Source: a virus. From it: a stretch of 22,728 nucleotides of DNA. Below, piece by piece: positions 214 to 14,133 of the stretch. The first letter of the stretch is position 1, and each line of letters starts with the position of its first letter. A program made the position numbers and the translations under genes. The stretch covers positions 64,001 to 86,728 of the IMG/VR virus record IMGVR_UViG_3300037502_003876; one strand, 5' to 3'. The notes below the pieces were generated by a model. It did no database searches and was not told where the DNA came from. It saw only the letters and a list, made by a program, of their open reading frames with translations.

Positions 214-716
214 CCGCCCCCGCCCGTACCCTGCCCCTGTTCGACGACGCGGACCTGGACCCGGCCACGCTGCCGCGCCCCGGCACGCTGGCGCCACCAC
301 CCCCACCCCCGACGACGACGCACCGCCGCCCGTCCCGCGTGGCGCAGATGGCGCTCCCGATCAAGCACCACCTCCCCGTGGTGCAGCCGGACCTCCACGC
401 GGCGACCGGCGGCGTGTGCCTGGTCCAGCAGGACGAGTGCAGCGAGGAGGACTGCCGGCACCACCTCGGGGCCGTCCGCGAGCACCTGGGGGAGAAGTGG
501 GGATGCGCGCTGGCGGTGGCCACGGCGTTCTCTGCCCACGGACTCGCGCCGGTGCACGTCGCCCGGCTGCTGGGGCTGCCCGAGGGCGAGGTGCAGGAGG
601 CCGAGCACCGGGCGCTCCGGTGGCTGCGCCTGGAGGTGGCGCGCCTCGCCGCCGAGGAGGAGGAGGACGCCCGCCGGGCCGCCGCCCGGGAACGGATGCG
701 CCGCGCCGCCGGCTGA
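210..716 (+). CDS. Sigma-region-4-like helix-turn-helix protein with three-Cys motif
   Basis: 168 residues. The ATG overlaps the helicase stop (ATGA) and has a good Shine-Dalgarno, AGAGGAGA, nine bases upstream. Residues 1-45 are Pro/Thr-rich and probably disordered. C70, C77 and C82 in a C-x6-C-x4-C-R-H-H-L pattern recall 'CP.v.CR.HL' motifs that precede sigma-like domains in some phage proteins. Residues about 110-140 (LAPVHVARLLGLPEGEVQEA then a basic RALRWLR helix) read like the region-4 helix-turn-helix of sigma-70 factors, which contacts the -35 box. The end is an acidic then Arg-rich helix. There is no region 2, so it is not a complete sigma factor. It may be a transcription regulator; the conserved -35-like elements downstream are plausible targets, which is inference only. 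Confidence 0.55.
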   Translation: MTAPARTLPLFDDADLDPATLPRPGTLAPPPPPPTTTHRRPSRVAQMALPIKHHLPVVQPDLHAATGGVCLVQQDECSEEDCRHHLGAVREHLGEKWGCALAVATAFSAHGLAPVHVARLLGLPEGEVQEAEHRALRWLRLEVARLAAEEEEDARRAAARERMRRAAG

Positions 717-740
717 CCCCTGCGCCGACCATGCGAGGGT
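713..740 (+). promoter_or_regulatory. Leaderless promoter 1 (array element)
   Basis: -35 CTGACC at 713-718, 16-base spacer, -10 GAGGGT at 735-740, then six bases to the ATG at 747. The TGA of the -35 box is the stop codon of the preceding gene (714-716). The core differs from the element at 2248-2275 by one base in 28. Confidence 0.7.
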
Positions 741-746
741 GAGGGG

Positions 747-1166
747 ATGAACCACGACCTCACCCCTGACGACATCGCCACCCTGAAGCGCGCCGAGGAG
801 ATCCTGATACGCCGTGCCGCGCGGCTGCGCCAGAACCCGGCCGTCACCGACCACGAGCCCACGGACCGCCTGTGCATCGCCGCCGATGGGCTCCAGCGCA
901 TCCTCGGCGTCCCGGAGCCGGAGACCTCGCCCGCCGTGCCGGTCGTCCTGTCGGTGATACTGACGCCGTACCAGGTGCGCACCCTGCGCAACATCCTGGC
1001 GGGTTCCTGCTACGACGCCAGGGACAGCGAGGCGGTGGCCGTGATGCTCGCCGAGATCGACCGCCGCCCGGTGGACCTGTACCGGCACTACGGCAACGAC
1101 CCGCCGGAGGACGCGGAGGTCGTGGAGAGCGCGGCGCCGCTGCTGGCAGAGGCAGCCGCCGGCTGA
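747..1166 (+). CDS. Hypothetical protein, single-gene unit
   Basis: 139 residues; I do not recognise the family. Residues 1-60 look alpha-helical with an Arg/Glu-rich segment (AEEILIRRAARLRQ). The middle holds a short hydrophobic strand (VPVVLSVIL) followed by a helix (TPYQVRTLRNILAG), and the end is acidic and Ala-rich. No signal peptide, membrane segment or catalytic motif is evident. The start is supported by the leaderless promoter six bases upstream; the stop TGA at 1164-1166 lies inside the next promoter. It forms its own transcription unit between two array promoters. Confidence 0.7.
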   Translation: MNHDLTPDDIATLKRAEEILIRRAARLRQNPAVTDHEPTDRLCIAADGLQRILGVPEPETSPAVPVVLSVILTPYQVRTLRNILAGSCYDARDSEAVAVMLAEIDRRPVDLYRHYGNDPPEDAEVVESAAPLLAEAAAG

Positions 1167-1190
1167 CCCCTCGCGGCGGCCGGGTAGGGT
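1163..1190 (+). promoter_or_regulatory. Leaderless promoter 2 (array element)
   Basis: -35 CTGACC at 1163-1168, 16-base spacer, -10 TAGGGT at 1185-1190, six G-rich bases, ATG at 1197. The -35 TGA is the stop of the upstream gene. A second promoter-like element lies at 1210-1238. Confidence 0.7.
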
Positions 1191-1196
1191 AGGGGG

Positions 1197-1826
1197 ATGC
1201 CTCCCGCTGTTGACCGCCCCGCCTCGCCCGGGGAGACTGGCCGCATGGTTGCCCTCTCCACGTTCGTCCAGCCCGCGGCGCTCCGTGCGCCACCGGACCC
1301 CGCGCCGGGGGACCGGCGGCTGAGCTTCGACGCGACGATGGACCTCCTCCGCGCGGTGGCGGACGGCGCGTGGCGCGTGACGCTGGACGACGTGCCGGCG
1401 TCGGCCTGGCGCGAGGGTCGGGACCGGGTGCGGGAGGAGCTGCGGGCGGTGCTCCACGTCCGCGACGAGCTGCACCAGCGCGGCGACGTGTTCCTGGTGG
1501 CGGTGGCGGCGTATCACCCGGCGTCGCTCCCGGAGGCCACGGACCTCCTCGCCCGGGCCCGCCCGCGGATCGACCGGGTGGCGGCGGTGTTCGGCTGGTT
1601 CGCCGCGGTGGACGTGCCCGGGACGCCGCCGGTGGCCGCCCCCGTCCGCCCGCCCGGCACCCCGCTGGACTACGCGCCGACGGTGGACGAGGTGTTCACC
1701 TGGATGCACCCGTCGCCCGAGCGCGCGGCGCACCTGGCCGCGACCCGGGCCGAGCGGTTCCGCGCGGCGGCAGAGGCGACGGTGCGCGACCACGGCCGGG
1801 CGCTCGACCTGCTGGCGGACCGGTGA
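1197..1826 (+). CDS. Hypothetical protein upstream of the Doc-like gene (two possible starts)
   Basis: 209 residues from ATG 1197, or 193 from the in-frame ATG 1245. Both starts lie six bases after a -10-like box, so two isoforms differing by 16 residues are possible; the extra residues are encoded by the second promoter element itself. The protein is Ala/Arg/Asp-rich and mainly helical, with an aromatic patch (AAVFGWFAAVDV) around residues 130-141 and a Pro-rich linker after it. I recognise no domain. It overlaps the Doc-like gene by GTGA and so is probably co-translated with it. An antitoxin role is conceivable from position only, but it is larger than usual Phd-type antitoxins and shows no DNA-binding motif I can identify. 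Codons here end in G more often than in later genes. Confidence 0.65.
   Translation: MPPAVDRPASPGETGRMVALSTFVQPAALRAPPDPAPGDRRLSFDATMDLLRAVADGAWRVTLDDVPASAWREGRDRVREELRAVLHVRDELHQRGDVFLVAVAAYHPASLPEATDLLARARPRIDRVAAVFGWFAAVDVPGTPPVAAPVRPPGTPLDYAPTVDEVFTWMHPSPERAAHLAATRAERFRAAAEATVRDHGRALDLLADR
1210..1238 (+). promoter_or_regulatory. Second, in-frame leaderless promoter candidate
   Basis: -35 TTGACC at 1210-1215, 17-base spacer containing GCCTCGCCCGG, -10 GAGACT at 1233-1238, then GGCCGC and ATG at 1245. It has the best -35 of the set but a spacer one base longer, and it sits inside the reading frame begun at 1197. Confidence 0.5.
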
Positions 1827-2251
1827 ACGTCGCCGACCTCACCCACGCGGACCTGCTGACCGTGGAGGAGGTGCTGCACCTCCACGCGGCGGTCATGCAG
1901 CGGGCCGGGCGGGCGCCGCAGCACGCGGACCCGGACCGGCTGGCCAGCGCGGTGCAGTCGGCCCACGGGCGGCTGGACTACGAGCACGAGGGGCCGCCGC
2001 CGCTGGACCTGTTCGACTACGCGGCGACCTACCTGCACCGGATCGCCGAGAGCCAGGCGTTCCTCGACGGCAACAAGCGCACGGCGCTGGCCGCGGCGCT
2101 CGCCTTCCTGGAGTTGCACGGGGTCGGGATGCCGGAGGAGACGGAGGCCATGGTGGAGGCCGTGGAGCGGTTCGCCGCGCAGCCGGACGGCGCCCCGCGG
2201 TGGACGACGGACGACGGCGCCGCGTGGCTCCGAGGGCTCCACCGGGACTGA
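1823..2251 (+). CDS. doc: Doc/Fic-family protein (death-on-curing-like) with Gln in place of motif His
   Basis: 142 residues, starting at GTG 1823 in a GTGA overlap with the upstream gene. Residues 78-88 read QAFLDGNKRTA, matching the Fic/Doc active-site loop H-x-F-x-D-G-N-K-R except that His is Gln78. Length, the helical pattern and the AAALAFLELHG helix after the loop fit Doc, the phage P1 toxin that phosphorylates elongation factor Tu. In Fic enzymes the motif His is the catalytic base, so either activity is changed or this is a naturally variant subfamily; I believe Gln-type Doc-like sequences exist but cannot verify it. No Phd-type antitoxin is recognisable next to it. It could act as a host-growth or superinfection factor. 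Family call is strong, activity uncertain. Confidence 0.85.
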   Translation: MNVADLTHADLLTVEEVLHLHAAVMQRAGRAPQHADPDRLASAVQSAHGRLDYEHEGPPPLDLFDYAATYLHRIAESQAFLDGNKRTALAAALAFLELHGVGMPEETEAMVEAVERFAAQPDGAPRWTTDDGAAWLRGLHRD

Positions 2252-2275
2252 CCCCTGCGCCGACCGTGCGAGGGT
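2248..2275 (+). promoter_or_regulatory. Leaderless promoter 3 (array element)
   Basis: -35 CTGACC at 2248-2253, 16-base spacer, -10 GAGGGT at 2270-2275, GGCGCC, ATG at 2282. The -35 TGA is the stop of the Doc-like gene. Confidence 0.7.
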
Positions 2276-2281
2276 GGCGCC

Positions 2282-2440
2282 ATGGACGAGATCAAGATGA
2301 TGTTCTTGACGGTTGTGACCGTGGCCGTCGCCTTCACGGTGGGGTACATCACGGGCAAGAGCCTCGACACCTGGCAGGCCGTCGAGGTCGCCCGCCTTCG
2401 CTGTGCGCCCAGCGCCGCGCCGGCCGGGAGCGCGCCATGA
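2282..2440 (+). CDS. Small single-pass membrane protein
   Basis: 52 residues. After MDEIK, residues 6-26 form one hydrophobic segment (MMFLTVVTVAVAFTVGYITG), long enough to cross the membrane, followed by a soluble tail with one Cys. It has no obvious signal-peptidase site, so I read it as a short anchored protein, perhaps with the N-terminus inside. Function is unknown; small one-helix proteins in early phage regions may act in superinfection exclusion or as partners of envelope proteins, but nothing here proves that. The start is fixed by the leaderless promoter. The last codons overlap a 12-codon reading frame by ATGA. Confidence 0.65.
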   Translation: MDEIKMMFLTVVTVAVAFTVGYITGKSLDTWQAVEVARLRCAPSAAPAGSAP

Positions 2441-2475
2441 GCGACACCACGAGGGAGCAGATCGAGGCGCGCTGA
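2437..2475 (+). CDS. 12-residue micro-ORF
   Basis: It reads MSDTTREQIEAR then TGA. The ATG sits in an ATGA overlap with the membrane-protein stop, and its own TGA (2473-2475) lies in the -35 box of the next promoter, exactly as for full-size genes of this block. That double fit supports real translation. It could be a peptide, a coupling device or a remnant of a longer gene. Upstream sequence GCCGGGAGCGCGCC gives a weak ribosome-binding site. Confidence 0.35.
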   Translation: MSDTTREQIEAR

Positions 2476-2499
2476 CCCCTCTGCCCGGGCGCGTAGGGT
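2472..2499 (+). promoter_or_regulatory. Leaderless promoter 4 (array element)
   Basis: -35 CTGACC at 2472-2477, 16-base spacer, -10 TAGGGT at 2494-2499, GGCGCC, ATG at 2506. The -35 TGA is the stop of the micro-ORF. Confidence 0.7.
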
Positions 2500-2505
2500 G
2501 GCGCC

Positions 2506-3699
2506 ATGGCCGAGAACAGCAACATCGCCTGGACCGACAACACCTTCAATCCCTGGATGGGCTGCCAGCGCGTCAGCCCCGGGTGTGAACGCTGCTACGC
2601 CGAGACGCTGGTGACCAACCGCATGAAGCTCCCGGTGTGGGGACCAGCGAAGACGACGGAGCGCAAGCGCACCGCGGTGAGCACCTGGCGCCAGCCGCTC
2701 GCGTGGAACCGCAAGGCGCAGGAAGAGGGGCGCCGCGTCAAGGTGTTCTGCGCCAGCCTGGCGGACGTGTTCGAGGACCATCCCCAGGTGGCCCCCTGGC
2801 GCGCGGACCTGTTCCGCATGATCGAGGACACGCCCCACCTGGACTGGTTGCTGCTGACCAAGCGCCCCGAGCACATGCTGCGCCTCGCCGCGGAGGCCGG
2901 GTGGTCCGGGCCGTGGCCGGTCAACGTGTGGGCGGGCACCACCGTCGAGAGCCAGGCCGCTGCAGACGAGCGGATCCCGCACCTGCTGCGGGTGCCGGCG
3001 AGGGTGCGGTTCCTCAGCGCGGAGCCGCTGCTGGGGCCGATTGATCTGCTCGGCTGGGCGGACCAAGCGCCGGCTCCCCCCTCCGAGGAGATGTGCGGCG
3101 GCTGGGAGGACCACGCCTGGGAGGACTGGATTCCCCTGTCGGTCCGGAGGTCGATCGAGAGCTTCTGGAGCGAGAGCATGAGGCGTGGCCCCTACCAGTG
3201 GCTCCGCGACCACGTCACCCAAGGCGTCCCCCGCACGGGCGCCAAGGTCACCATCGAGATCGACCGGCACGGCTGGGGGACGGTCAACAAGATGACGCCC
3301 TCCGGGGTCGGGGTTCAGGGGCGTTACGTGCACTGCTGGAACAACATCGGGCGCGTCGTCACTGACGCTGGTCAGCTCGTCTCCGTAAGCAGTCACGGTA
3401 GCAGCGGTTGGCTGACAGGCTGGTACGACAGGGCCACCGACAGCTACCGCCCCAAGTTGCACTGGATCATCGTCGGCGGCGAGAGCGGGTCCTCTGCTCG
3501 GCCCTTCGATCTTGCGTGGGCCCGCGGACTACGCGACCAGTGCTCGCGCAAGCATCAGACAAAGATCCCGTTCTTCTTCAAGCAGGCCGGCTCTCGCCCC
3601 CTCCTCGAAGGCGCCACGCTAAGGCTCGTGGACCGCGCTGGCGCCGACCCGGCCGAGTGGCCGGAGGACCTGCGCGTACAGCAGTTCCCCGCGGGCTGA
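2506..3699 (+). CDS. DUF5131 / phage Gp37-Gp68 family protein
   Basis: 397 residues. The N-terminus shows IAWTDNTFNPWMGCQRVSPG followed by CERCYAE, with C20, C27 and C30 in a C-x6-C-x2-C pattern; then FCASLADVFED, LLLTKRP, NVWAGTTVES, RFLSAEPLLGPI and, at 324-334, GGESGSSARPF. This is the ordered motif set of the DUF5131 family (phage Gp37/Gp68). Its biochemical role is not established; the Cys triad recalls metal- or FeS-binding radical-SAM-like proteins. About 130 residues (roughly 186-316) separate PLLGPIDLL from the WIIVGGESG strand, more than I expect for the family, and this insert looks slightly less GC-rich. It forms a single-gene unit with its own leaderless promoter. Confidence 0.85.
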   Translation: MAENSNIAWTDNTFNPWMGCQRVSPGCERCYAETLVTNRMKLPVWGPAKTTERKRTAVSTWRQPLAWNRKAQEEGRRVKVFCASLADVFEDHPQVAPWRADLFRMIEDTPHLDWLLLTKRPEHMLRLAAEAGWSGPWPVNVWAGTTVESQAAADERIPHLLRVPARVRFLSAEPLLGPIDLLGWADQAPAPPSEEMCGGWEDHAWEDWIPLSVRRSIESFWSESMRRGPYQWLRDHVTQGVPRTGAKVTIEIDRHGWGTVNKMTPSGVGVQGRYVHCWNNIGRVVTDAGQLVSVSSHGSSGWLTGWYDRATDSYRPKLHWIIVGGESGSSARPFDLAWARGLRDQCSRKHQTKIPFFFKQAGSRPLLEGATLRLVDRAGADPAEWPEDLRVQQFPAG

Positions 3700-3723
3700 C
3701 CCCTCGCCCGACGCTGGCAGAGT
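3696..3723 (+). promoter_or_regulatory. Leaderless promoter 5 (array element)
   Basis: -35 CTGACC at 3696-3701 within an exact TGACCCCTCGCC, 16-base spacer, -10 CAGAGT at 3718-3723, six bases, ATG at 3730. The -35 TGA is the stop of the DUF5131 gene. Confidence 0.7.
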
Positions 3724-3729
3724 CGGCCT

Positions 3730-4389
3730 ATGAAGATTCGCCTCTCGCCCCGCGCCGCCGCGCTCTCCGACCGCCTCCTCGCCCACGTCCAGCAGGGCCC
3801 TGTCCGCACCCGCGCCGACCTCGAAGCGTGGTGGGGCCAGCGGTCCGGGGTGCAGCGGGTGGAGCTGTTCCGGCTCCTCGCCGACCTGGTGGACGAGGGC
3901 CACCTTCACCGCCACGGCCCGGACGCGTGGGGCGCCACGCCGCCCGTCCCCGAGGCGCCGCCCACGCCTCGCCCGGCGCCGGTCCCGCTGAGCATCACGC
4001 TCGGCACCGGCGACGACGCGGTGACCGTCACCGGCGCCAACCCGGACCGCGTGCGCGCCGTCGCCCTCGGCTACCAGCGGGACGCGGTGCGCGGCGGCAC
4101 GGGCCCGGTGCGCCTCGCTCCGGCGACGCCCCCACCCCCGCCACCGGCCCCGGCGCCCCCGCCCGCCCCCACGCCGCCGTCGCCGAAGGTGGACCCGCGC
4201 CCCGTGCCCACCCCGGGCACCACCGCCGCGCGCATCCTGACGCTCCTGCGCCGCGGCAAGCGCACCACCGCCGAGGTGGTCGAGCGGCTGGACCTGGCAG
4301 CGCCGACGGTGCGCGGCCGGCTGAGCGAGTTGACCGCCGCCGGATGGCTGGTGCGCGACGAGGCGGGCCGGTGGAGCGTGGTGCCGTGA
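3730..4389 (+). CDS. Protein with two predicted winged-helix domains joined by Pro-rich linkers
   Basis: 219 residues. Residues about 8-68 (ALSDRLLAHVQQGPVRTRAD ... LLADLVDEGHLHRHG) and about 162-219 (TTAARILTLLRRGKRTTAEV ... RGRLSELTAAGWLVRDEAG, WSVVP) each have a helix, a helix-turn-helix and a beta hairpin, as in MarR/IclR-type winged helices. Between them lies a small beta-like domain (SITLGTGDDAVTVTG, residues about 88-102) flanked by Pro/Ala linkers. This suggests a DNA-binding regulator or tether; no enzymatic motif is seen. It heads a four-gene unit and overlaps the next gene by GTGA. Confidence 0.65.
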   Translation: MKIRLSPRAAALSDRLLAHVQQGPVRTRADLEAWWGQRSGVQRVELFRLLADLVDEGHLHRHGPDAWGATPPVPEAPPTPRPAPVPLSITLGTGDDAVTVTGANPDRVRAVALGYQRDAVRGGTGPVRLAPATPPPPPPAPAPPPAPTPPSPKVDPRPVPTPGTTAARILTLLRRGKRTTAEVVERLDLAAPTVRGRLSELTAAGWLVRDEAGRWSVVP

Positions 4390-4682
4390 CCGCGGCGACG
4401 TTCTGCGCGCTGACGGCAGCGCTGACGGCGGCCGTGGACGCGGGCGTGGTAACCCGGTGGCGCGTGCACGCCGACGCCGCCCAGGTGTCCCTGTGGCTCG
4501 GCGCGACCCCCTTCCTGCTGGCGCCGGACCAGGTGCCCGCGTGGCTCGCGGACCGGGTGCGGTACATGGGCGCCTCCACCAGCCGGTTCTTGCTGCCGGC
4601 GCAGCACCGCGCGTGGTCGGTGCTGCTCGACCGGCTCGGCGACCTGGCCGAGACCCTGCCGTGGTGGACGGTGGCGCCATGA
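4386..4682 (+). CDS. Hypothetical protein
   Basis: 98 residues from GTG 4386 in a GTGA overlap. The sequence alternates a helical N-terminus (FCALTAALTAAVDAGVV), a beta-like stretch (RWRVHADAAQVSLWLGATPF) and a helical C-terminus ending WWTVAP. I do not recognise the family. There is no Cys cluster or clear membrane segment. Tight overlaps on both sides show it is translated as part of the four-gene unit starting at 3730. Confidence 0.6.
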   Translation: MTAATFCALTAALTAAVDAGVVTRWRVHADAAQVSLWLGATPFLLAPDQVPAWLADRVRYMGASTSRFLLPAQHRAWSVLLDRLGDLAETLPWWTVAP

Positions 4683-5014
4683 CCCGCGCCGCCCGTCTCC
4701 GGTCGCGCCTGTGGCTACGTGTCCTGCTGTTCCACGACCCCAGCGTGCCGGACAAGATGGTCCGCGCCCTCTACGTGACGGGCAGGCATGTGGCCTACGT
4801 CATGGGTGACGGGCAGTGGGATGCCTACTGTCTCGACGAGGAGACGTTCCACGAGAACGGTCCCGCCGGGATGCAGTGGTTCGGCGGCGGCCGGCTGGAC
4901 TGCTGCGACTCGTCGGAGCGTCTGGCCCCGGAGGCGCTGGACTTCTGCCGGGCAAGGCTGCGCGACCCGGCCCCGCCGTGGCTGCGCGAGCGCAGTACGT
5001 GGGTGGCGCCATGA
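4679..5014 (+). CDS. Hypothetical protein
   Basis: 111 residues from ATG 4679 (ATGA overlap). A basic N-terminus (RAARLRSRLWLRVLLF) is followed by beta-type sequence (ALYVTGRHVAYVMGDGQWDA) and a mixed region with three Cys, including a CC pair (GGRLDCCDSSE). I recognise no family. It ends in WVAP, like its upstream neighbour (WTVAP), because both stop codons sit in the same GCGCC-ATGA junction sequence. Confidence 0.6.
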   Translation: MTRAARLRSRLWLRVLLFHDPSVPDKMVRALYVTGRHVAYVMGDGQWDAYCLDEETFHENGPAGMQWFGGGRLDCCDSSERLAPEALDFCRARLRDPAPPWLRERSTWVAP

Positions 5015-5214
5015 CCCGCGCCAACCGACGCCGCCGCTACCGGGCCCGCCAGCGCGTGGGCCCCCACCAGACCATCGGCGACCACCCGTGCGCAGTGTGC
5101 GAGACCATCGTCATCGGGACGTGGGCCCGGTGCCTCGCCTGCGGCCTGGACCACCGCCACGCCTGGGGCCAGTACCGCCACCCGCGCCGGAGCCGGTGGG
5201 GCCGGGGCCGCTGA
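5011..5214 (+). CDS. Small basic zinc-ribbon protein
   Basis: 67 residues from ATG 5011 (ATGA overlap). C27-x2-C30 and C41-x2-C44 form a compact zinc-ribbon pattern between very Arg-rich ends (RRRRYRARQR and RRSRWGRGR). Small basic zinc ribbons in phages usually bind nucleic acid or host proteins; which applies here is not visible. It is last in its unit, and its TGA is part of the next promoter's -35 box. Confidence 0.65.
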   Translation: MTRANRRRRYRARQRVGPHQTIGDHPCAVCETIVIGTWARCLACGLDHRHAWGQYRHPRRSRWGRGR

Positions 5215-5238
5215 CCCCTCGCCGGCCGGGGGCACACT
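5211..5238 (+). promoter_or_regulatory. Leaderless promoter 6 (array element)
   Basis: -35 CTGACC at 5211-5216 within exact TGACCCCTCGCC, 16-base spacer, -10 CACACT at 5233-5238, seven bases, ATG at 5246. The -35 TGA is the stop of the upstream gene. Confidence 0.7.
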
Positions 5239-5245
5239 CGGCTGC

Positions 5246-5815
5246 ATGACCGACCCACTCCCCGACCACGCCCGCCCCATCGCCTGGATTGACGTGGAGA
5301 CCACCGACCTCGACGAGCACGCGGGCGCCGTCCTGGAGGTGGGCCTCGTGGTGACCGACCCGGACCTCCACGAGACCGCGGCCCGGGCGTGGACGGTGCG
5401 CTACGTGGGCCCGGTGGCCGACGTGATCGCCCGGATGCACGGCCCCGCCGGCAGCGGCCTGCTGACGCCCACGGCCACCGGCTGGGCCTGCGCCGGGCTG
5501 TCGGCGCCCGAGGTGGACGCCATGGCCGCGGTGTGGCTGCGGGAGGCGTGCCGCGGCGTCGCCCCGCTGTGGGGCGGGCGCAACGTGTCCTTCGACCGGC
5601 GCTGGTGCCGCGCGCACCTGCCCCACCTCCACGACACCGTGCACCACCGGAGCCTGGACGAGACCACGCTGCGGATCGCGCTCGCCGGGTGGGCCGGCGT
5701 CACCGTGCCCAAGGACGCCACCGCCGCGGGCAACACCCACCGGGCGCTGGCGGACCTGCGGGAGAGCCTGCGGGTGGCGCGGGCGTTCCGGGACGCCGTG
5801 CGAGGTGGTCGATGA
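5246..5815 (+). CDS. DEDDh 3'-5' exonuclease, oligoribonuclease-like
   Basis: 189 residues. IAWIDVETTDLDEHAGAVLE gives Exo I with D16 and E18; GRNVSFDRRW gives Exo II with D117; HRALADLRESL gives Exo III with H165 and D170. All catalytic residues of the DEDDh family are present. The VHHRSLDETTL stretch before Exo III and overall length (about 180) are closest to oligoribonuclease (Orn), which degrades very short RNA to mononucleotides; a DnaQ/RNase T-type DNA exonuclease is the alternative. A region between Exo I and Exo II has a Gly/Thr-rich insert (HGPAGSGLLTPTATGWACAG). It may recycle nucleotides or remove nano-RNAs during infection. First gene of a four-gene unit. Confidence 0.85.
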   Translation: MTDPLPDHARPIAWIDVETTDLDEHAGAVLEVGLVVTDPDLHETAARAWTVRYVGPVADVIARMHGPAGSGLLTPTATGWACAGLSAPEVDAMAAVWLREACRGVAPLWGGRNVSFDRRWCRAHLPHLHDTVHHRSLDETTLRIALAGWAGVTVPKDATAAGNTHRALADLRESLRVARAFRDAVRGGR

Positions 5816-6105
5816 GCCTCGGCTTCTGTGACTTCTGCGCGCGCCTCGACGAGATGGCCGAGACGACGCCCTTCGGTGGGCGCTGCACCGCCTGCGCCAC
5901 CGGTCTCTGCTACGACACGGACGGGTGGCGCAAGTGCAGCGCCGGCCTCTGCCGGCCCACCCGGCTGCGCGAGGAGGAGGCGCCGTGCACCGACCCCGGC
6001 CTCGTCCTGCTGGGCCTCGCGTTCTTCGACGCGATCCGGGCCGACCTCGCGGCGCAGGGCGTCGTCCTCGACGCGGCCGACTGGCTCCTCGGGGAAGACG
6101 AGTGA
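5812..6105 (+). CDS. Cys-rich small protein, probable zinc binding
   Basis: 97 residues from ATG 5812 (ATGA overlap). C6-x2-C9, C25-x2-C28, C33, C42 and C47 fall in the first half, consistent with two zinc sites; the second half is a hydrophobic helix (LVLLGLAFFDAIRADLAAQG) with acidic ends. I do not recognise the family. Adjacent to the exonuclease and two other Cys-containing proteins, so a shared nucleic-acid role is possible. Confidence 0.6.
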   Translation: MSLGFCDFCARLDEMAETTPFGGRCTACATGLCYDTDGWRKCSAGLCRPTRLREEEAPCTDPGLVLLGLAFFDAIRADLAAQGVVLDAADWLLGEDE

Positions 6106-6682: not shown

Positions 6683-6706
6683 CCCCTCGCCGGGGCAGGG
6701 CAGAGT
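6679..6706 (+). promoter_or_regulatory. Leaderless promoter 7 (array element)
   Basis: -35 CTGACC at 6679-6684 within exact TGACCCCTCGCC, 16-base spacer, -10 CAGAGT at 6701-6706, seven bases, ATG at 6714. This decides ATG 6714 over an in-frame GTG at 6705, which lies inside the -10 box. Confidence 0.7.
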
Positions 6707-8039: not shown

Positions 8040-8063
8040 CCCCTCGCCGGGGGAGGGTAGGGT
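8036..8063 (+). promoter_or_regulatory. Leaderless promoter 8 (array element)
   Basis: -35 CTGACC at 8036-8041 within exact TGACCCCTCGCC, 16-base spacer, -10 TAGGGT at 8058-8063, GCGGCC, ATG at 8070. The -35 TGA is the stop of the upstream gene. Confidence 0.7.
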
Positions 8064-8069
8064 GCGGCC

Positions 8070-8876
8070 ATGCCCTCACCCCGCGCCTACCCGCGCCTGC
8101 ACCGGGAGGCCACCGACCCGACCACGCCCCCGGGCCGGCTGGACAAGTTCACGAGGCACCTGTCGATCACGGTGCGCCGGTGGGCCACGGCCAACCCGAA
8201 CCTGCCGGAAGGCCGCCTCCGGGAGCTGATGGGCCACGGCCACCCGGCCGCCTGGGACAACCCGGCCGCCCCGCTGGTCCTGCTGACCGTGCCCCGCGAG
8301 GAGGCCGAAGGCGGCGCCCGGGCCTGCGCCCGGGAACTGGCCCGGCTCCGGTCCCGGGAGAGCACCTTCGGCGCGGAGGACACGCCGTACCCGGTGAGCG
8401 ACCGCATGCGCGCCCTGCTCCACCCGCTGCTGCTGTCCGCGTGGGAAGACCCCAGGCCGAGCCGGCTGCTGATCCCCACCTCCCACCACGCCCGGAACTG
8501 CGGCCTCCTGTCCCGCGAGCATCACACCGTCACCCTGCTGGTCTGCCTGGCCGTGCGCGCCGTGCTGGCAGAGCGGCCCGACCACGGATGGTCCACCTGG
8601 CAGACCGACCGCATGATCGACGAGGCCGAGGCGTTCGCGCGCTCCGGCGAGACCGACCCGCTCCGGGCCGGCGCGTGGCTGGACCGGTTCGCGTGGATGG
8701 CCTCCTCCATCGCCTACCAGGCCCTCTTGCACGCGGCGATCTGCCACGGTGACTGGATGTACCGGATGGGCGACGGGTCCAACGGCCGCAACCTCGACGA
8801 CCTGCCCGGCGTGGCGGACCTGATCCGCGCCGCGCTCCCGGTCCCGCTGTGGATGCAGGAGGTCGCCCCGGGCTGA
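8070..8876 (+). CDS. Hypothetical protein with LRV-like N-terminus
   Basis: 268 residues. The first 75 (TDPTTPPGRLDKFTRH; ITVRRWATANPNLPEGRLRE; AAWDNPAAPLVLL) contain two or three copies of a 'NP..P...L..L......R..A' pattern, as in variant leucine-rich repeats (LRV), which stack as short helices and usually bind proteins. The rest is helical and rich in Trp and His (HGWSTWQTDRMIDEAEAFAR; FAWMASSIAYQALLHAAICH) and shows no catalytic motif I know. It forms its own transcription unit. The LRV assignment is by eye and tentative. Confidence 0.6.
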   Translation: MPSPRAYPRLHREATDPTTPPGRLDKFTRHLSITVRRWATANPNLPEGRLRELMGHGHPAAWDNPAAPLVLLTVPREEAEGGARACARELARLRSRESTFGAEDTPYPVSDRMRALLHPLLLSAWEDPRPSRLLIPTSHHARNCGLLSREHHTVTLLVCLAVRAVLAERPDHGWSTWQTDRMIDEAEAFARSGETDPLRAGAWLDRFAWMASSIAYQALLHAAICHGDWMYRMGDGSNGRNLDDLPGVADLIRAALPVPLWMQEVAPG

Positions 8877-8900
8877 CCCCTCGCCCACGCCGGGCATCCT
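8873..8900 (+). promoter_or_regulatory. Leaderless promoter 9 (array element)
   Basis: -35 CTGACC at 8873-8878 within exact TGACCCCTCGCC, 16-base spacer, -10 CATCCT at 8895-8900, GCCGCC, ATG at 8907. The -35 TGA is the stop of the upstream gene. Confidence 0.65.
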
Positions 8901-8906
8901 GCCGCC

Positions 8907-9146
8907 ATGGCCCACGCGACCCCGTGCCTCTACCCGCCGAGCCCGGCGGCCACCACCGAGCCACCCGCCCCGGACCTCGCCCCCGGGCTGCGGGAGGCCG
9001 CCGCCCACCTGGACCGCCGCGCGGACGAGGCCCGCGGCCACGCCCGGGCGCTCCGGCAGCGGGCCGCCGCGCTCGACGACCTCGCCGCCGTGCTGACGGC
9101 CGAGGCCACCCACCTGCGCACGCAGGCCGGGGGCGCCGGTGGCTGA
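8907..9146 (+). CDS. Small coiled-coil protein
   Basis: 79 residues. A Pro-rich start is followed by one long Ala/Arg helix (GLREAAAHLDRRADEARGHA, then ALRQRAAALDDLAAVLTAEA) with heptad spacing, probably a coiled coil. Not recognised. Its 3' end overlaps the membrane-protein gene by eight bases. The pairing of a short coiled-coil protein with a two-helix membrane protein could reflect an envelope complex, but this is inference. Confidence 0.6.
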   Translation: MAHATPCLYPPSPAATTEPPAPDLAPGLREAAAHLDRRADEARGHARALRQRAAALDDLAAVLTAEATHLRTQAGGAGG

Positions 9147-9300
9147 CCTGCTGGCCGCGCTGCTGTTCGCGCTGGGCATCGTCGGCGCCGCCCTCGGCCG
9201 CCACGACCCGGCGCTGCTGACCGCGAGCCTCATGGCGCTCACGGTCGCCGTCCTCCACGCCCACGCCCACCACCCGGACGACCCGGACGACGACCCGTGA
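9139..9300 (+). CDS. Small two-helix membrane protein (holin-like size)
   Basis: 53 residues from GTG 9139, preceded by GGGGGCGCCG as a possible ribosome site. Residues 3-20 (DLLAALLFALGIVGAALG) and about 24-42 (PALLTASLMALTVAVLHAH) are hydrophobic and separated by a short RHDP turn, giving two membrane helices in a hairpin; the tail is His/Asp-rich. Size and topology resemble small holins or antiholins, but no lysin is nearby, so a lysis role is unproven. It overlaps the preceding coiled-coil gene and ends in a GTGA junction. Confidence 0.55.
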   Translation: MADLLAALLFALGIVGAALGRHDPALLTASLMALTVAVLHAHAHHPDDPDDDP

Positions 9301-9362
9301 GCCCGCCCGCCCGGCACCGCCACGGTGACCCCTCGCCCACCGCGGGCATCCTCGGCCCATGA
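9297..9362 (+). CDS. Micro-ORF spanning promoter 10
   Basis: 21 codons from GTG 9297, overlapping the upstream stop by GTGA and the next ATG by ATGA. The frame reads MSPPARHRHGDPSPTAGILG plus one Pro and runs straight through the promoter element at 9325-9352. Both overlaps match the coupling style of this block, but the composition is what any GC-rich frame would give, so it may be incidental. Confidence 0.2.
   Translation: MSPPARHRHGDPSPTAGILGP
9325..9352 (+). promoter_or_regulatory. Leaderless promoter 10 (array element)
   Basis: -35 GTGACC at 9325-9330 within exact TGACCCCTCGCC, 16-base spacer, -10 CATCCT at 9347-9352, CGGCCC, ATG at 9359. Here the TGA is not the stop of the preceding full-size gene, which ended at 9300. 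Confidence 0.65.
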
Positions 9363-9694
9363 AGACCGCCCACCGATTGCCCACCGTGACCCCGTTGCGC
9401 CCTCCCGCGAGGCTGGCCCCGGCCCTGGCCCGGGCGCTCCCCGGATGGGAGGTCCGCCTGACCGTGTACGTCACCGGCGGCGAGTGCCGCTACCGGGCCC
9501 ACGCCCTCACGACGCGCTACCTGCCGGGCTGCGTCCTCACCCTCGACGTGCCCGGCGCCCCCTCCGACGGCGAGCGCCCCGCGTGGGTGGCGCTGGTGGA
9601 TGCGCTGGCCGCGTGCGAGCACCTGGACGTCAACGAGCGCGCCCAGGTCACCGCGCTACAGGACGTGCTGCGCTCGGCCCGGAGGACGCCGTGA
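9359..9694 (+). CDS. Hypothetical protein
   Basis: 111 residues. After a basic Pro-rich start (RLPTVTPLRPPARLAPALAR) it has beta strands (WEVRLTVYVTGGECRYRAHA; CVLTLDVPGA) and a C-terminal helix (WVALVDALAACEHLDV). I do not recognise it. The start is set by promoter spacing, and the end overlaps the next gene by GTGA. Confidence 0.6.
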   Translation: MKTAHRLPTVTPLRPPARLAPALARALPGWEVRLTVYVTGGECRYRAHALTTRYLPGCVLTLDVPGAPSDGERPAWVALVDALAACEHLDVNERAQVTALQDVLRSARRTP

Positions 9695-10239
9695 ACCCGC
9701 CGGTCCTCGCCGCGCTGGCCGAGGGCGGCCCGCTGCCGCTGCACATCGGGGTGTGGGAGCGCCCCCGCGTGGTGGACTGGCGCGGCCACCGCCTCCAGAT
9801 GCACGACGACGGCCACGGGCTGGCGCTGCTGTCCTCTGCGCCGGAGGACGCTGACGAGATCGCGTGCACGGAGAACACCCGGGCCATCCTCGACGCGGCG
9901 CTGGACGGGGAGACGGCCTTCCACGGCGTGGACCGGACGCACCTGGCCGTCGACCTGCTGGGGCACATGGTGGCGATGAACCGCGTCAGCTTCGTCTGCG
10001 CGGTGAGCGGCCTGTGGATGCGCTCCGACACGCTGGCGCTCGTGCTCGCCGCCGACGTGGAGCAGGTGGGCGCCACGCCGCACCCGGTCCCCGCCCGCAC
10101 CGGGCTGCCGTACCGGGCGCTGCTGTGGCTCGGGAGCGGGTGGGCCATCCTCCAAGCCGGCAGCCGCGAGCCGCAGCGGTCCGGGCCCAGCGCCCAGGCG
10201 AGCATCCCGGCCCTCACCATCCAGGCGGGGGAGCCGTGA
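9691..10239 (+). CDS. Hypothetical protein
   Basis: 182 residues from GTG 9691 (GTGA overlap). Alternating beta segments (LPLHIGVWERPRVVDWRGHR; GHGLALLSS; RVSFVCAVSGLWMRSDTLAL) suggest a compact soluble alpha/beta fold. The C-terminal 30 residues are Ser/Gln/Pro-rich and probably flexible. No known motif was found. It sits between an unknown protein and a zinc-ribbon/HTH protein in a three-gene unit. Confidence 0.6.
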   Translation: MNPPVLAALAEGGPLPLHIGVWERPRVVDWRGHRLQMHDDGHGLALLSSAPEDADEIACTENTRAILDAALDGETAFHGVDRTHLAVDLLGHMVAMNRVSFVCAVSGLWMRSDTLALVLAADVEQVGATPHPVPARTGLPYRALLWLGSGWAILQAGSREPQRSGPSAQASIPALTIQAGEP

Positions 10240-10853
10240 GCCGCCCCCGCTCCCCGTGCCCCGTCGGCCAGCGGTTCGGGCGGCTCGTGGTGACCGGCGA
10301 GGGGACGCCGCGGAGGTACGGGCGAGCCGACCTGCGGGTCCGGTTTTTCTGCTGCCGGTGCGACTGCGGTGTCGTCAAGGACGTCAGCGCCATCAGCCTG
10401 CGCCGCGGGGTCACCGTGTCCTGTGGATGCATCCGCGCCACGGTCACCCGGGTCTGCGGACGCGCCCTCAACCCACAGGAGCGCGAGCAGGTCGAGGAGG
10501 GCGTGCGCCAGGCCGGCACCGCACGCGCCTACGCCGCCGCGTGCGGCGTCAGCGCCAGCACGCTCTCGGACGCGCGCAAGGGCAAGCCGGTCCGGCCCGG
10601 CACGCGGGAGAAGATCCTGTGCACGCACGACTCCACCCGCGCGCCGCCGTCGCGGGACGCCGTGGCCACGCTCCTGGCCCGCATCCCGACCACGCCCACC
10701 CCTGTCCGGGTGATCGAGGCGTGGGGCTGCGTGCTGGACCTGTCGCGCGGCGACGTGTGGGCTGCCCTGGAGAGCGCCCTCGCCCGCGGGGAACTGGCCC
10801 GCGACCTCGGACCGGCCGGGCTGCGCTGGCGTCGGGTCGGACCGCCACGGTGA
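10236..10853 (+). CDS. Zinc-ribbon plus helix-turn-helix protein (HNH/AP2-associated type)
   Basis: 205 residues from GTG 10236 (GTGA overlap). Residues 8-65 follow the pattern G-x-R-F-G-R-L-x-V, then CCRCDCG (C39-C44) and SCGC (C63, C65), which I know as the zinc-finger module at the front of many phage HNH and AP2-domain homing-type endonucleases. No HNH or AP2 nuclease follows; instead residues about 97-125 (GTARAYAAACGVSASTLSDA then a basic RKGKPVRPG) form a helix-turn-helix. The C-terminal 70 residues resemble a further small helical domain. Likely a DNA-binding protein, possibly derived from a homing endonuclease by domain exchange. Last gene of its unit. Confidence 0.65.
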   Translation: MSRPRSPCPVGQRFGRLVVTGEGTPRRYGRADLRVRFFCCRCDCGVVKDVSAISLRRGVTVSCGCIRATVTRVCGRALNPQEREQVEEGVRQAGTARAYAAACGVSASTLSDARKGKPVRPGTREKILCTHDSTRAPPSRDAVATLLARIPTTPTPVRVIEAWGCVLDLSRGDVWAALESALARGELARDLGPAGLRWRRVGPPR

Positions 10854-10877
10854 CCCCTCGCCCGGGAGGCGCACACT
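10850..10877 (+). promoter_or_regulatory. Leaderless promoter 11 (array element)
   Basis: -35 GTGACC at 10850-10855 within exact TGACCCCTCGCC, 16-base spacer, -10 CACACT at 10872-10877, GGCCGC, ATG at 10884. The -35 TGA is the stop of the upstream gene (10851-10853). Confidence 0.7.
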
Positions 10878-10883
10878 GGCCGC

Positions 10884-11495
10884 ATGAAGCACGCCGCGCC
10901 CCCACCCGCTCCCGCCCCGTCCCCTCCGCTCCTGCTGGCCCAGGCCCGGCTGCACCCGACCGACGAGGCGGACCTGCGCTGGTACTGGTGCGATGCCCCG
11001 GGCGAGATGGGCGAGCGGTCCTCCCTCGGCCCGATGACCGACCGGCTCGCGGAGGGCCGCGTCACCGCCCCGCAGGCCGGCACCCCGGACCTGCCCGCCC
11101 GCGCCTTCTTCGCCGCCCGGCGCGCCCGCCCCATCGAGGCCCGGCTCCGGCGCCTGTCCGCCGTCCACCAGGTCACGCTGCGCGCGGCCTACGGCCCCGG
11201 CCTCCCGGCGTCGCAGCTCGCGGACTACCCGGGGCTCGGGTCCGACGCCCTCCCGGCGACCCTGCTCCTGCTGGTGGCGCAGCGCACCGGCGTCCCCCGG
11301 GCCGACGTGCGGCAGTGGTGCGGCAACGCCAAGGACGTGGCCAGCGCCGCCGCCCACCGCGCCCGGCTCGCGGCGCTGCGGTTCGAGGCCACGTTGCAGC
11401 TCACCTCCGCCGGCCTGGCCTACAGCGACCTGATCCGCGCCGAGCACCGCGCCGCCCGCCGGCCCCACGAGGACGCGGACGAGGAGACCCCGTGA
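10884..11495 (+). CDS. Hypothetical protein, possible phage late-regulator type
   Basis: 203 residues. After a Pro/Ala-rich start, LRWYWCDAPGEMGERSSLGP and a helical core (RPIEARLRRLSAVHQVTLRA then AYGPGL) give a 'R...i...L..L...h..vL...Y' pattern that recalls helical phage regulators with sigma-like or RinA/ArpU-like folds. I cannot identify a clear recognition helix, so this is only a suggestion. A second helical part (DVASAAAHRARLAALRFEAT) follows. First gene of a four-gene unit; GTGA overlap with the next. Confidence 0.5.
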   Translation: MKHAAPPPAPAPSPPLLLAQARLHPTDEADLRWYWCDAPGEMGERSSLGPMTDRLAEGRVTAPQAGTPDLPARAFFAARRARPIEARLRRLSAVHQVTLRAAYGPGLPASQLADYPGLGSDALPATLLLLVAQRTGVPRADVRQWCGNAKDVASAAAHRARLAALRFEATLQLTSAGLAYSDLIRAEHRAARRPHEDADEETP

Positions 11496-12004
11496 GCACC
11501 CCCGACGCCACCCCGCCCCCGCCCCCGTCCCGCCCCGTCGCCCTGCTGGTCACCGGGAGCCGGTCCCTCGCCACCCGCATCGCCCGCGCCGAGTGGGCCC
11601 ACGCCATCGTCGCGGACGCCGTGCGCGCCCTCCCGCCCGGCTCCCTCCTGCTCCACGGGGGCGCCACCGGCCCGGACCAGTGGGCCCACGACGTGGCGCT
11701 CCACCACCGCCCGGACGTGGCCATCCACGTCTACCAGCCCAACGGCCACCTGCGCCGGTACTCGGAGCGGTCCGGCGACCTGCGCTTCGTCGAGCCCGGC
11801 CGGTGGTCCGCCACCGACGCCGGCCCCCTCGCCCGCAACCGCCACCTGGTCCACGTCCTCGCCGCGCTCCCCGGCTACACCCCGCGCGTCCTCGCCGTGG
11901 TGGACCCGGCCAGCCGCACCCACGGCGCTGACCACACCGCCCGCCTCGCCCGCGCCGCCGGCCTGCCGGTGGACCGCCGCGTCCACCCGGGGGCGACCCC
12001 GTGA
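11492..12004 (+). CDS. SLOG-fold protein, DUF2493/YspA type
   Basis: 170 residues from GTG 11492 (GTGA overlap). VALLVTGSRSL (residues 16-26), LLLHGGATGPDQWA (52-65) and GPLARNRHLV (111-120, R115-N116-R117) are the three ordered motifs of the SLOG/DUF2493 family, a Rossmann-like fold related to DprA and LOG proteins that is proposed to bind nucleotide-derived ligands. The exact role of the phage members is unknown; links to NAD- or nucleotide-signal metabolism have been proposed for SLOG proteins generally. Length is usual. The domain assignment is firm; the substrate is not. Confidence 0.8.
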   Translation: MSTPDATPPPPPSRPVALLVTGSRSLATRIARAEWAHAIVADAVRALPPGSLLLHGGATGPDQWAHDVALHHRPDVAIHVYQPNGHLRRYSERSGDLRFVEPGRWSATDAGPLARNRHLVHVLAALPGYTPRVLAVVDPASRTHGADHTARLARAAGLPVDRRVHPGATP

Positions 12005-12882
12005 CCCCGCGCCGCCACCGCGGGTGGATGGTCCTGCCGCACGCGACCGAGCGGTTCGTCGAGCGCGTCGCCCCCGTCCCGCCGGAGGTGGCCCACGCCT
12101 GGCTCACGGAGCACGCCCACACCGCCGTCCACACCGGCCAGACCACCGCCCGCGGCCAGGTGCTCTACCGGCTCCGGCACCCGTGGCCCGGCCCCGACGC
12201 CGTGCTCGTCGTCCAGCGCGACCCGGACGGCACCCGCGCCGTCGTCACCTGCGGGTACTGGCACGAGCAGGACGACGGAGACGACGTGGAGGACGCCATG
12301 CCTCCCGCGCCCCACGTCCCTGTCCACGCGGGACTGCCGACGATGGCCGCCGAGCCCGCCCGCCCGCTGACGGCCGAGCAGGTCAGGGTAGGGCTACAGC
12401 CGCGCAGGGAGGTGCGGCGCCTGGAGTTCCCGCCGCCGAAGGATCTACCCCGCCCGCCGGGGCACCTCGACCTCGGCTGCATCTGCACCGGGCTGACCCT
12501 CGACCCGGACGCGCTGACGTCCGGGCACCTGCTCCGGTGGGCAGAGCATGTGAACCACGCGCGCAAGCAGCTGCGCGGAGTCCACCATGACAACGTGAGG
12601 TCGTGCGCGGCCAAGTCCCTGGCGACCTCGCTGCGCAGGTACGCCCACGAGCGGCGCCAGGCCGAGGACAGGGCAGCGCGGGTGGCCAGGGCCCAGGAGT
12701 CGAAGGCCGGAAGCCTGGCCAGGATCGCGGCCAAGGGCAACGTCCACCGCTCGCTGCTGACCGCCGTGGGCGAGGTGCTGGAAGAGCGCCACGGCAAGGC
12801 GTGGTGCGAGGAGGTGTTCACCGAAGCCAAGCGCCGCCTCACCGCCCTCCTCGCCGACGCCCCGCCGGACTCCGCCCCGTGA
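12001..12882 (+). CDS. Two-part hypothetical protein
   Basis: 293 residues from GTG 12001 (GTGA overlap). Residues 1-90 (LPHATERFVERVAPVPPEVA; GQVLYRLRHPWPGPDAVLVV; TRAVVTCGYWH) have an H-x3-RF-x2-R start and alternating strands that faintly resemble DUF4258 or RelE-like small folds. An acidic linker (EQDDGDDVEDA) leads to a C-terminal half rich in basic helices (SLATSLRRYAHERRQAEDRA; ARVARAQESKAGSLARIAAK), probably coiled coil or nucleic-acid binding. There is a lone C-I-C pair (GCICTG). Function unknown. Confidence 0.6.
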   Translation: MTPRRHRGWMVLPHATERFVERVAPVPPEVAHAWLTEHAHTAVHTGQTTARGQVLYRLRHPWPGPDAVLVVQRDPDGTRAVVTCGYWHEQDDGDDVEDAMPPAPHVPVHAGLPTMAAEPARPLTAEQVRVGLQPRREVRRLEFPPPKDLPRPPGHLDLGCICTGLTLDPDALTSGHLLRWAEHVNHARKQLRGVHHDNVRSCAAKSLATSLRRYAHERRQAEDRAARVARAQESKAGSLARIAAKGNVHRSLLTAVGEVLEERHGKAWCEEVFTEAKRRLTALLADAPPDSAP

Positions 12883-13238
12883 CCCCGCGGTACCCCCACG
12901 GCTGCCCGCCCCGCTACCTCACCCGCGACGGCGCCCACGCCCGCGTCCAGGTCACCCACCTGTGGCTCGCCGACCACGCCCCGTCCCGGGTCCAGGAGCC
13001 GTGGTGCTCCTCGCCGGAGTACACCGCGCCCGTCGTCCTCGCGTGCGTCGCCGCGCTGCGCGACCTGCCCGCCGTCGGCTACACCGTGGACACCTACCGC
13101 CGCTACCAGGTCGAGGTGTGGGGCCCACCCGGCGCCCAGCTCCGCCAGGCCCGGCGCCGCCTCGCCCGCCTCCTCGGCCACGCCCCGGAGAGCCGCGTAT
13201 GGCCCGCCCCGACCCCTCGCCGGGGCAGCGTAGGGTGA
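12879..13238 (+). CDS. Hypothetical protein whose end runs through promoter 12
   Basis: 119 residues from GTG 12879 (GTGA overlap). It contains HARVQVTHLWLADHAPSRVQ, then a hydrophobic helix (APVVLACVAALRDLPAV) and strands (YTVDTYRRYQVEVWG); the last ten or so codons (PAPTPRRGSVG) are the sequence of the next promoter, and the stop TGA is made by the last two bases... of the -10 region plus the base after it (13236-13238). Family unknown. It ends only four bases before the next ATG. Confidence 0.55.
   Translation: MTPRYPHGCPPRYLTRDGAHARVQVTHLWLADHAPSRVQEPWCSSPEYTAPVVLACVAALRDLPAVGYTVDTYRRYQVEVWGPPGAQLRQARRRLARLLGHAPESRVWPAPTPRRGSVG
13209..13236 (+). promoter_or_regulatory. Leaderless promoter 12 (array element)
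   Basis: -35 CCGACC at 13209-13214 (one base off TGACCCCTCGCC), 16-base spacer, -10 TAGGGT at 13231-13236, GAGGCC, ATG at 13243. The stop codon of the upstream gene falls after this -10 box, not in the -35. Confidence 0.65.
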
Positions 13239-13242
13239 GGCC

Positions 13243-13518
13243 ATGACCGACGGCACCACGCGCAACCCGGCCGACCCCACCCGGCCCGACCTCGGCGGAC
13301 CCCTGCCGGTGGACAAACTCGAGCACCTCCTCGCCCTGGCCGAGACCCAGCGCCGCCTGCCCTTCCTCCCGGCGGTCTCGTTCTACAGCGTCCCCGGCTC
13401 CACCGACATCGCCGTCCTGCTCGGCGAGGAACCTCTCGGCGTCCTCACCCGCGCCCAGTACGACGACCTCCGCGCCCGCCTGGCCCCCACCACCCCACGC
13501 CCGCCGGTCACCCCATGA
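13243..13518 (+). CDS. Hypothetical protein
   Basis: 91 residues. Disordered Thr/Pro-rich start, then LPVDKLEHLLALAETQRRLP and beta-type sequence (AVSFYSVPGSTDIAVLLGEE), then a short helix (TRAQYDDLRARLAP). Not recognised. The start is set by promoter spacing and it overlaps the next gene by ATGA. Confidence 0.55.
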   Translation: MTDGTTRNPADPTRPDLGGPLPVDKLEHLLALAETQRRLPFLPAVSFYSVPGSTDIAVLLGEEPLGVLTRAQYDDLRARLAPTTPRPPVTP

Positions 13519-13733
13519 GAGCCGGCTGGGAGCGCACCCGCCTCGCCGTCGTCGACGGCCGCCGCCTGTGGCAGACCCGCACCGTCCTCGGCTGGCGCAT
13601 CTACCACGCCGACGGCACCCTGATCGGCACCCACGACCGCGAGCCATTCCCCGCCCTCCGGCAGCTGTGCCGCCGATGGGGCTGGCGCATCACCGTCGTC
13701 GTCGGCCCCGTCACCCGCGAGGAGCCCGCCTGA
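13515..13733 (+). CDS. Small hypothetical beta-rich protein
   Basis: 72 residues from ATG 13515 (ATGA overlap). Short strands with aromatic residues (LAVVDGRRLWQTRTVLGWRI; ITVVVGPVT) surround a central helix (EPFPALRQLCRRWGW). Family unknown. Its TGA is at 13731-13733, seven bases before the next promoter box, so this is one of the few stops not merged with a -35. Confidence 0.55.
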   Translation: MRAGWERTRLAVVDGRRLWQTRTVLGWRIYHADGTLIGTHDREPFPALRQLCRRWGWRITVVVGPVTREEPA

Positions 13734-13739
13734 CCGCCG

Positions 13740-13767
13740 GTCACCCCTCGCCCCGGTCGCGCACACT
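13740..13767 (+). promoter_or_regulatory. Leaderless promoter 13 (array element)
   Basis: -35 GTCACC at 13740-13745 (one base off TGACCCCTCGCC), 16-base spacer, -10 CACACT at 13762-13767, CAAGGC, ATG at 13774. It is the last array element before the packaging module. Confidence 0.65.
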
Positions 13768-13773
13768 CAAGGC

Positions 13774-14133
13774 ATGAGCGACCCCACGCCACCACCCACC
13801 CACCGCCGAGGATCCGTCGCCCGCTGCGCCCGCTGCGGGTTGGTCGAGGTCGCAGGCCACCGGGAGGACATGCCGATGTGCCCCGCGTGCCAGGGCGCCG
13901 CCACCGTCGAGGCCCTGGCCCCGGGTGGGCGGTACCGCGAACTCGCCGCCGCCCTGGACGACGGCCCCGACCTGCCCCCCGGCCCGCTCGCCGTGCCACC
14001 CGCGCAGCCGTCGCCTTACAGCGACCTGCGCACCGCCCTCCTCGCCGCCATCGCCCACCGGGACCAGCGCATCCGCGAGCTAGAGGCCGAGGTCACCACC
14101 CTCCGCGCCCGCCTCGCCCGGAGCGCCCCGTGA
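13774..14133 (+). CDS. Zinc-ribbon protein with C-terminal coiled coil
   Basis: 119 residues. C18-x2-C21 and C36-x2-C39 form a zinc ribbon after a short His/Pro-rich start; a Pro-rich linker follows, and the last 35 residues (LAAIAHRDQRIRELEAEVTT then LRARLARS) are a clear coiled coil that could dimerise it. Probably a nucleic-acid- or polymerase-binding regulator, by analogy with zinc-ribbon proteins; not proven. It overlaps the next, HTH-like gene by GTGA. Confidence 0.6.
   Translation: MSDPTPPPTHRRGSVARCARCGLVEVAGHREDMPMCPACQGAATVEALAPGGRYRELAAALDDGPDLPPGPLAVPPAQPSPYSDLRTALLAAIAHRDQRIRELEAEVTTLRARLARSAP

Follow-up and report, generated by a model that had tools for sequence, protein, structure and literature searches.

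A rigid, putative leaderless promoter element repeated across the non-structural genes of a high-GC phage

Introduction

Leaderless mRNAs are common in high-GC bacteria, and one actinophage, Streptomyces phage phiC31, has lytic promoters that form a conserved, phage-specific early set. Here we describe an element that recurs directly before gene starts in a 22,728-nucleotide stretch of viral DNA (hereafter the window), which corresponds to bases 64,001 to 86,728 of the 86,728-bp virus record IMGVR_UViG_3300037502_003876 (GC content 74%). The element consists of a -35-like sequence, a spacer of 16 bases and a -10-like hexamer a few bases before an ATG, and it carries an additional conserved block that overlaps the -35 and runs past it.

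Several described systems share part of this design. In cluster K mycobacteriophages, many copies of one asymmetric sequence (SAS/ESAS) lie a few nucleotides from start codons, with a strong bias to ATG (80/93), only at non-structural genes and rarely in the hosts, and they sometimes overlap the upstream stop codon (PMC3203893). The present element is like SAS/ESAS in being a repeated start-adjacent sequence with ATG bias, non-structural confinement, stop-codon overlap and rarity in hosts. However, the cluster K SAS is GGGATAGGAGCCC, has a Shine-Dalgarno (SD) core and a proposed role in translation (PMC3203893), whereas the element here has a spaced -35/-10 promoter geometry; within two mismatches, GGGATAGGAGCCC occurs once in the window against 0.69 expected, and not at a start. 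Leaderless promoters of bacteria are the second point of comparison. In Streptomyces the -35 is BTGACN and the -10 TANNNT, and AUG is favoured in leaderless genes (PMC8780764); leaderless mRNAs make up about 22% in Streptomyces avermitilis, about 22% of start sites in Mycobacterium tuberculosis begin with an RTG, and mycobacterial leaderless starts prefer C at -1 (PMC8780764, PMC4633059). The element resembles such promoters of Actinobacteria and Deinococcus-Thermus in its (T)ANNNT near the ATG, a -35 that mostly fits BTGACN, -1 C and AUG preference (PMC4633059, PMC8780764, PMC12340547, PMC3160421), but host promoters have only the -10 and -35 in common with one another, whereas the present elements also have the extra block and the rigid 16-bp spacing in common and make up a phage-wide set. 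The middle promoters of T4 likewise join a host-type -10 to a phage-specific box near -30 that replaces the normal -35 (PMC6755090), although the box sequence differs and leaderlessness is not a defining trait of T4 middle mRNAs; as to sigma appropriation, the likeness is in box position only, no AsiA or MotA homolog being shown here. In halovirus HF2, class I intergenic-repeat promoters are also spread over early-middle genes, but they are of the archaeal TATA type (PMC8707807). Start-associated repeats, leaderless promoters and phage-specific -30 boxes each have precedents. What appears new, within an open-access library and with the phiC31 lytic promoters standing outside this comparison, is that all three are combined in a single rigid element of which the phage has 27 copies; that library gave no described phage in which a single rigid type of leaderless promoter underlies a phage-wide regulon.

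Results

Thirteen elements in the window, all on the plus strand, have the geometry given for them in the original prediction, namely a -35 of the form xTGACC (relaxed in two), exactly 16 bases, NANNNT, 6 or 7 bases and ATG. They are listed below together with a doubtful fourteenth, and the score is that of the matrix described after the list.

713 to 746, plus strand: element 1, cTGACC-16-GAGGGT-6-ATG(747), score 19.7
1163 to 1196, plus strand: element 2, cTGACC-16-TAGGGT-6-ATG(1197), score 25.2
1210 to 1244, plus strand: doubtful fourteenth, TTGACC-17-GAGACT-6-ATG(1245), below the matrix threshold
2248 to 2281, plus strand: element 3, cTGACC-16-GAGGGT-6-ATG(2282), score 20.1
2472 to 2505, plus strand: element 4, cTGACC-16-TAGGGT-6-ATG(2506), DUF5131 gene, score 29.8
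3696 to 3729, plus strand: element 5, cTGACC-16-CAGAGT-6-ATG(3730), gene for a winged helix-turn-helix (HTH) protein, score 34.6
5211 to 5245, plus strand: element 6, cTGACC-16-CACACT-7-ATG(5246), score 27.4
6679 to 6713, plus strand: element 7, cTGACC-16-CAGAGT-7-ATG(6714), score 31.7
8036 to 8069, plus strand: element 8, cTGACC-16-TAGGGT-6-ATG(8070), score 31.7
8873 to 8906, plus strand: element 9, cTGACC-16-CATCCT-6-ATG(8907), score 24.7
9325 to 9358, plus strand: element 10, gTGACC-16-CATCCT-6-ATG(9359), score 22.8
10850 to 10883, plus strand: element 11, gTGACC-16-CACACT-6-ATG(10884), score 21.8
13209 to 13242, plus strand: element 12, ccGACC-16-TAGGGT-6-ATG(13243), score 23.9
13740 to 13773, plus strand: element 13, gTCACC-16-CACACT-6-ATG(13774), score 20.6

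A 29-column matrix, from which the ATG was excluded and whose training set consisted of 29 elements from beyond the window (the rest of the phage and a related phage), recovers exactly these thirteen with scores of 19.7–34.6, and the next-best scores in the window are 6.4 on the plus strand and 4.1 on the minus strand. Comparison with shuffled sequence, which had been suggested as a check, gives a mean of 0.01 matches at a score of at least 15 in 100 dinucleotide shuffles, and the bare geometry TGACC-N16-NANNNT-N6/7-ATG occurs 11 times in the window against 0.01 per shuffle. The two relaxed -35 sequences are those at 13209 (CCGACC) and 13740 (GTCACC). A gap-permissive scan with other spacer lengths gave no further copies. 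As for the fourteenth element with its 17-base spacer, the letters are present, yet it has no GACCCCTC core, scores below the threshold and lies within the open reading frame (ORF) that starts at 1197, and it is therefore left out of the count. Through the spacer, elements 1 and 3 have almost the same sequence (713-740 and 2248-2275; CTGCGCCGACCRTGC), which suggests a recent promoter duplication.

With the survey extended beyond the window, and to related phages as had also been proposed, the counts are 27 elements in the source phage, 22 in a related phage (IMGVR_UViG_3300043411_001246) and four in a third contig (IMGVR_UViG_3300033067_001394), 53 in total; the well-sampled genomes are two, and genes were called with a simple caller. 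The related phage has diverged from the source phage, with tail genes up to 72% identical and early genes 30–78% identical in a reshuffled order. Further sets in the source phage include plus-strand elements at 25-30 kb and minus-strand elements at 37-51 kb. The absence of elements from the head module, noted before, holds for the whole structural region of about 32 kb (0/27 elements, p=3e-6) and again for that of the related phage (about 30 kb, 0/22, p=7e-6). The exclusion is not absolute across relatives, since one element of the third contig adjoins portal-region genes. The genes at 2506 (DUF5131), 3730 (winged HTH) and 5246 have orthologs in the related phage that also bear the element, as does the ortholog of the 10884 gene in the third contig. 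Four copies have no ATG at a distance of 6-8 nt, one at 49258 of the source record and three in the related phage (2513, 5765 and 69752), all on the minus strand. Outside these phages, the extended motif gave one stray match in 296 genomes of Actinomycetota, and a BLAST search with one element showed no array in isolated phages. The single matches seen in low-GC viral contigs (L014, L018, L021, L022, L040-L045) are at chance level, and those in contigs G003 and G004, which have no genes in common with the source phage, are probably chance too. In addition, a DNA methyltransferase gene (record 49262-50029), 78% identical in the related phage and by far its best-conserved non-structural gene, has an element directly downstream in both phages.

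Among the 53 copies, the spacer between -35 and -10 is 16 bases without exception. The block, which overlaps the -35, has the base counts G 52, A 53, C 53, C 53, C 53, C 52, T 52 and C 49, and it is followed by one variable base, mostly CC, a weakly conserved spacer and then NANNNT. Of the whole block GACCCCTC(g)CC (GACCCCTCgCC), the part GACCCCTC reaches four bases beyond the -35 and ranks with the best-conserved positions of the element, whereas the spacer after GACCCCTC has for the most part diverged. This block is the main oddity of the design, and it was missed in the original prediction, whose thirteen elements stand but cover only part of the set. In the -10, the A (52/53) and the final T (53/53) are fixed and the middle positions vary. 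The gap from the -10 to the ATG is 6 bases in 36 copies, 7 in 12 and 8 in one. If +1 is the A of the ATG, the block lies at about -32 to -22 and the -10 at -12 to -7. Base -1 is C in 42/49 (36% expected, p=2e-12); since starts joined to the previous gene by a stop/start overlap often show C at -1 as well, this is support for a leaderless start and not proof.

The window elements stand in a row of 33 ORFs that runs without a break from 747 to 14363 (listed extent 747 to 14698, plus strand). Of these ORFs, 13 start at an element and the other 20 by a stop/start overlap of -4 or -8 with the gene before. The earlier statement that the elements start nearly every transcription unit was therefore an understatement, as every ORF start between 747 and 14133 that has no such overlap, 13 in all, has an element. 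The start codon is ATG at all 13 element starts against 8/20 overlapping starts (p=5e-4), the other 12 of which are GTG. Neither a terminator-like site nor another promoter of Escherichia coli consensus was found in positions 1-14500 of the window. From their gene content, the genes of the array are presumed to be early. A Fic/DOC family protein is encoded at 1823-2251 within an operon of the array.

Discussion

Taken as a whole, the elements are probably sigma70-family promoters of leaderless mRNAs that share a co-regulating factor, either encoded or co-opted by the phage. Each element would be read by the host RNA polymerase with a sigma70-family factor through the -10 NANNNT and the BTGACN-like -35 at 16-bp spacing, and transcription would start at, or at most one base from, the A of the adjoining ATG to give a leaderless mRNA, in which the first gene would be translated from the 5' AUG and the following genes by stop/start coupling. 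The elements would be copies of one design distributed over the non-structural operons, and GACCCCTCgCC would in addition be read by a DNA-binding factor that switches the whole set.

The leaderless part of this explanation draws on indirect evidence. The -10, with A-11 and T-7 fixed and the middle free, would fit recognition by sigma70 region 2, and its fixed distance to the ATG would place the A at the usual transcription start site; the -1 C and the exclusive use of ATG point the same way. Moreover, the related-phage copy at 2513 (minus strand) leads into a leader of about 35–40 nt with AGGAG before the ATG, so that the element is not tied to translation, and a copy without an adjoining ATG but with an SD leader is expected of a promoter and not of a translation signal. 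Three findings weigh against the explanation. First, the median anti-SD pairing energy is -7.45 kcal/mol in the element leaders compared with -3.2 at internal ATGs. The earlier claim that no SD interaction is possible before these ATGs was accordingly too strong, since the G-rich stretch around the -10 pairs with the anti-SD above background, and translation from read-through RNA may be possible for this reason. Second, in 10/13 window elements the upstream gene uses the TGA of the -35 as its stop codon, and the distance from stop to ATG is therefore fixed at 30–31 nt, although the enrichment of the T extends to copies at which no called gene ends (19/31). Third, the first base of the -10 is mostly C (38/53), which is weak for sigma70.

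It is a serious possibility, though one we would not bet on, that the elements are leaderless promoters for the host sigma factor only, i.e. that one strong host-type promoter was copied and the block is common by descent in gene-plus-promoter cassettes, with no dedicated factor. The -10 fits the ANNNT of high-GC hosts, and the -35 mostly fits BTGACN, which is the consensus of Streptomyces. The overlap with the upstream stop codon would suit a cassette boundary, and no match to sigma region 2 was found in the record. However, GACCCCTC has remained near-invariant across the 53 copies on three contigs, in contrast to the spacer, which has diverged with almost no constraint, and this argues for selection on the block; the extended pattern is all but absent from the genomes searched in one phylum. 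That all elements have the block in common suggests that they are turned on or off as a group, and because the block runs past any normal -35 it is probably read by a phage factor that co-regulates the set. A second promoter class in the same phage bears on this point. It has the canonical form TTGACA-16-TATTAT/TAGTAT and occurs in two near-identical copies on the minus strand at 34.0 and 35.1 kb of the record (L010:14004-14089 and 15082-15167), with a palindromic operator (ATACGGGCGCCCGTAT) as the spacer and a repeated SD leader of about 40 nt before two different genes. As two promoter classes coexist, the array probably answers to its own factor. Leaders resembling the SD leader of the canonical promoters are also present at L010:12260 and 12861.

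The best-placed candidate for such a factor, albeit a weak and rather improbable one, is encoded directly before the array:

210 to 716, plus strand: gene for a 168-amino-acid HTH protein that contains a Cys/His motif; SD-led and immediately upstream of element 1

Both phages have dnaB, then this same small HTH gene, then the first element of the plus array, so that the homolog holds the same place in two diverged genomes. It is conceivable, if doubtful, that this protein is a free-standing one resembling sigma region 4, which would replace or tether region 4 of the host sigma and give the specificity for GACCCCTCgCC while host region 2 reads the -10, much as in T4 sigma appropriation. It is the best Sigma70_r4 match of the genome (E 0.0019), the Foldseek lists for two models are led by sigma region 4, and the position of the block resembles that of the MotA box centred at -30 (PMC6755090). 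But the match of 14.9 bits is under the curated Pfam cut-off of 24.1, hidden Markov model and hhalign comparisons with bona fide sigma region 4 gave no support (hhalign probability 2%), the homolog in the related phage has no Sigma70_r4 match, and no further homologs were found. The models are of low confidence, and in VIA Z values sigma region 4 is tied with LuxR-type and other HTH folds. A search of plasmids and phages did not find a family of free-standing sigma-4 proteins marked by a CxxxSCRHHL motif, which the protein may resemble. The alternative candidate regulator is the other shared HTH protein (record 31345-31920), which is 64% identical in the related phage.

Alternatively, the block could be the operator of a prophage repressor that silences all promoters of the array, in the manner of the cluster A stoperators but on promoters. 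This appears unlikely. The phage looks temperate, with an integrase and a CI-like HTH protein, and the block overlaps the -35; yet the CI-like protein has no significant match in the related phage, where the block is identical, the block is not palindromic, and the phage already has another, palindromic operator in the two canonical promoters. A translation or RNA signal, with the G-rich hexamer as SD sequence or a hairpin of block and hexamer, is highly improbable despite the anti-SD energy given above and a possible ACCCCT-AGGGT pairing in 14/53 copies, since about 28% of the hexamers, among them CATCCT, CACACT and CACCGT, lack an SD match and still keep the invariant A and T, and RNAalifold gives no consensus pair; with no covarying pair and no Rfam match, a hairpin or other RNA element was rejected.

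If the promoter explanation is true, early and late genes of the phage would use different routes of ribosome loading, a difference that might help with timing or make the phage resistant when initiation factors change, and the elements would offer compact, portable leaderless promoters together with a testable candidate regulator. The copies without an adjoining ATG would be natural controls for leadered against leaderless use. The furthest extension, a long shot at present, would be a family of temperate phages that express their non-structural genes as one leaderless regulon, in which the sigma-region-4-like protein re-aims the host polymerase at GACCCCTCgCC, dozens of transcripts start on their own AUG and leaderless translation yields the early proteins.

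Other features of the phage record

The last 127 bp of the window (22602-22728) are an exact direct repeat of bases 1-127 of the record, and the record is therefore probably complete, with a circular map about 86.6 kb long, though the database listing is linear. It codes for an integrase, a CI-like HTH protein, DnaB helicase, uracil-DNA glycosylase and a PAPS-reductase-family protein, and for terminase, portal and major capsid protein, so the virus looks like a temperate tailed phage. Similarity searches found no close relative among isolated phages, and those with terminase, DnaB, PAPS reductase, uracil-DNA glycosylase, DUF5131 and major capsid protein gave no close relative with a named host; a contig of an Actinomycetota metagenome-assembled genome with a 45% identical major capsid protein is without the element. 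One phage protein (L011:4656-5666) has a weak Cas6-like match (E 0.0015), below the cut-off. In record 38187-41460, a PAPS-reductase/DUF3440 protein is encoded near a ParB-N domain protein, and its homolog on a haloarchaeal plasmid (54% identical) is also near a ParB-N protein.

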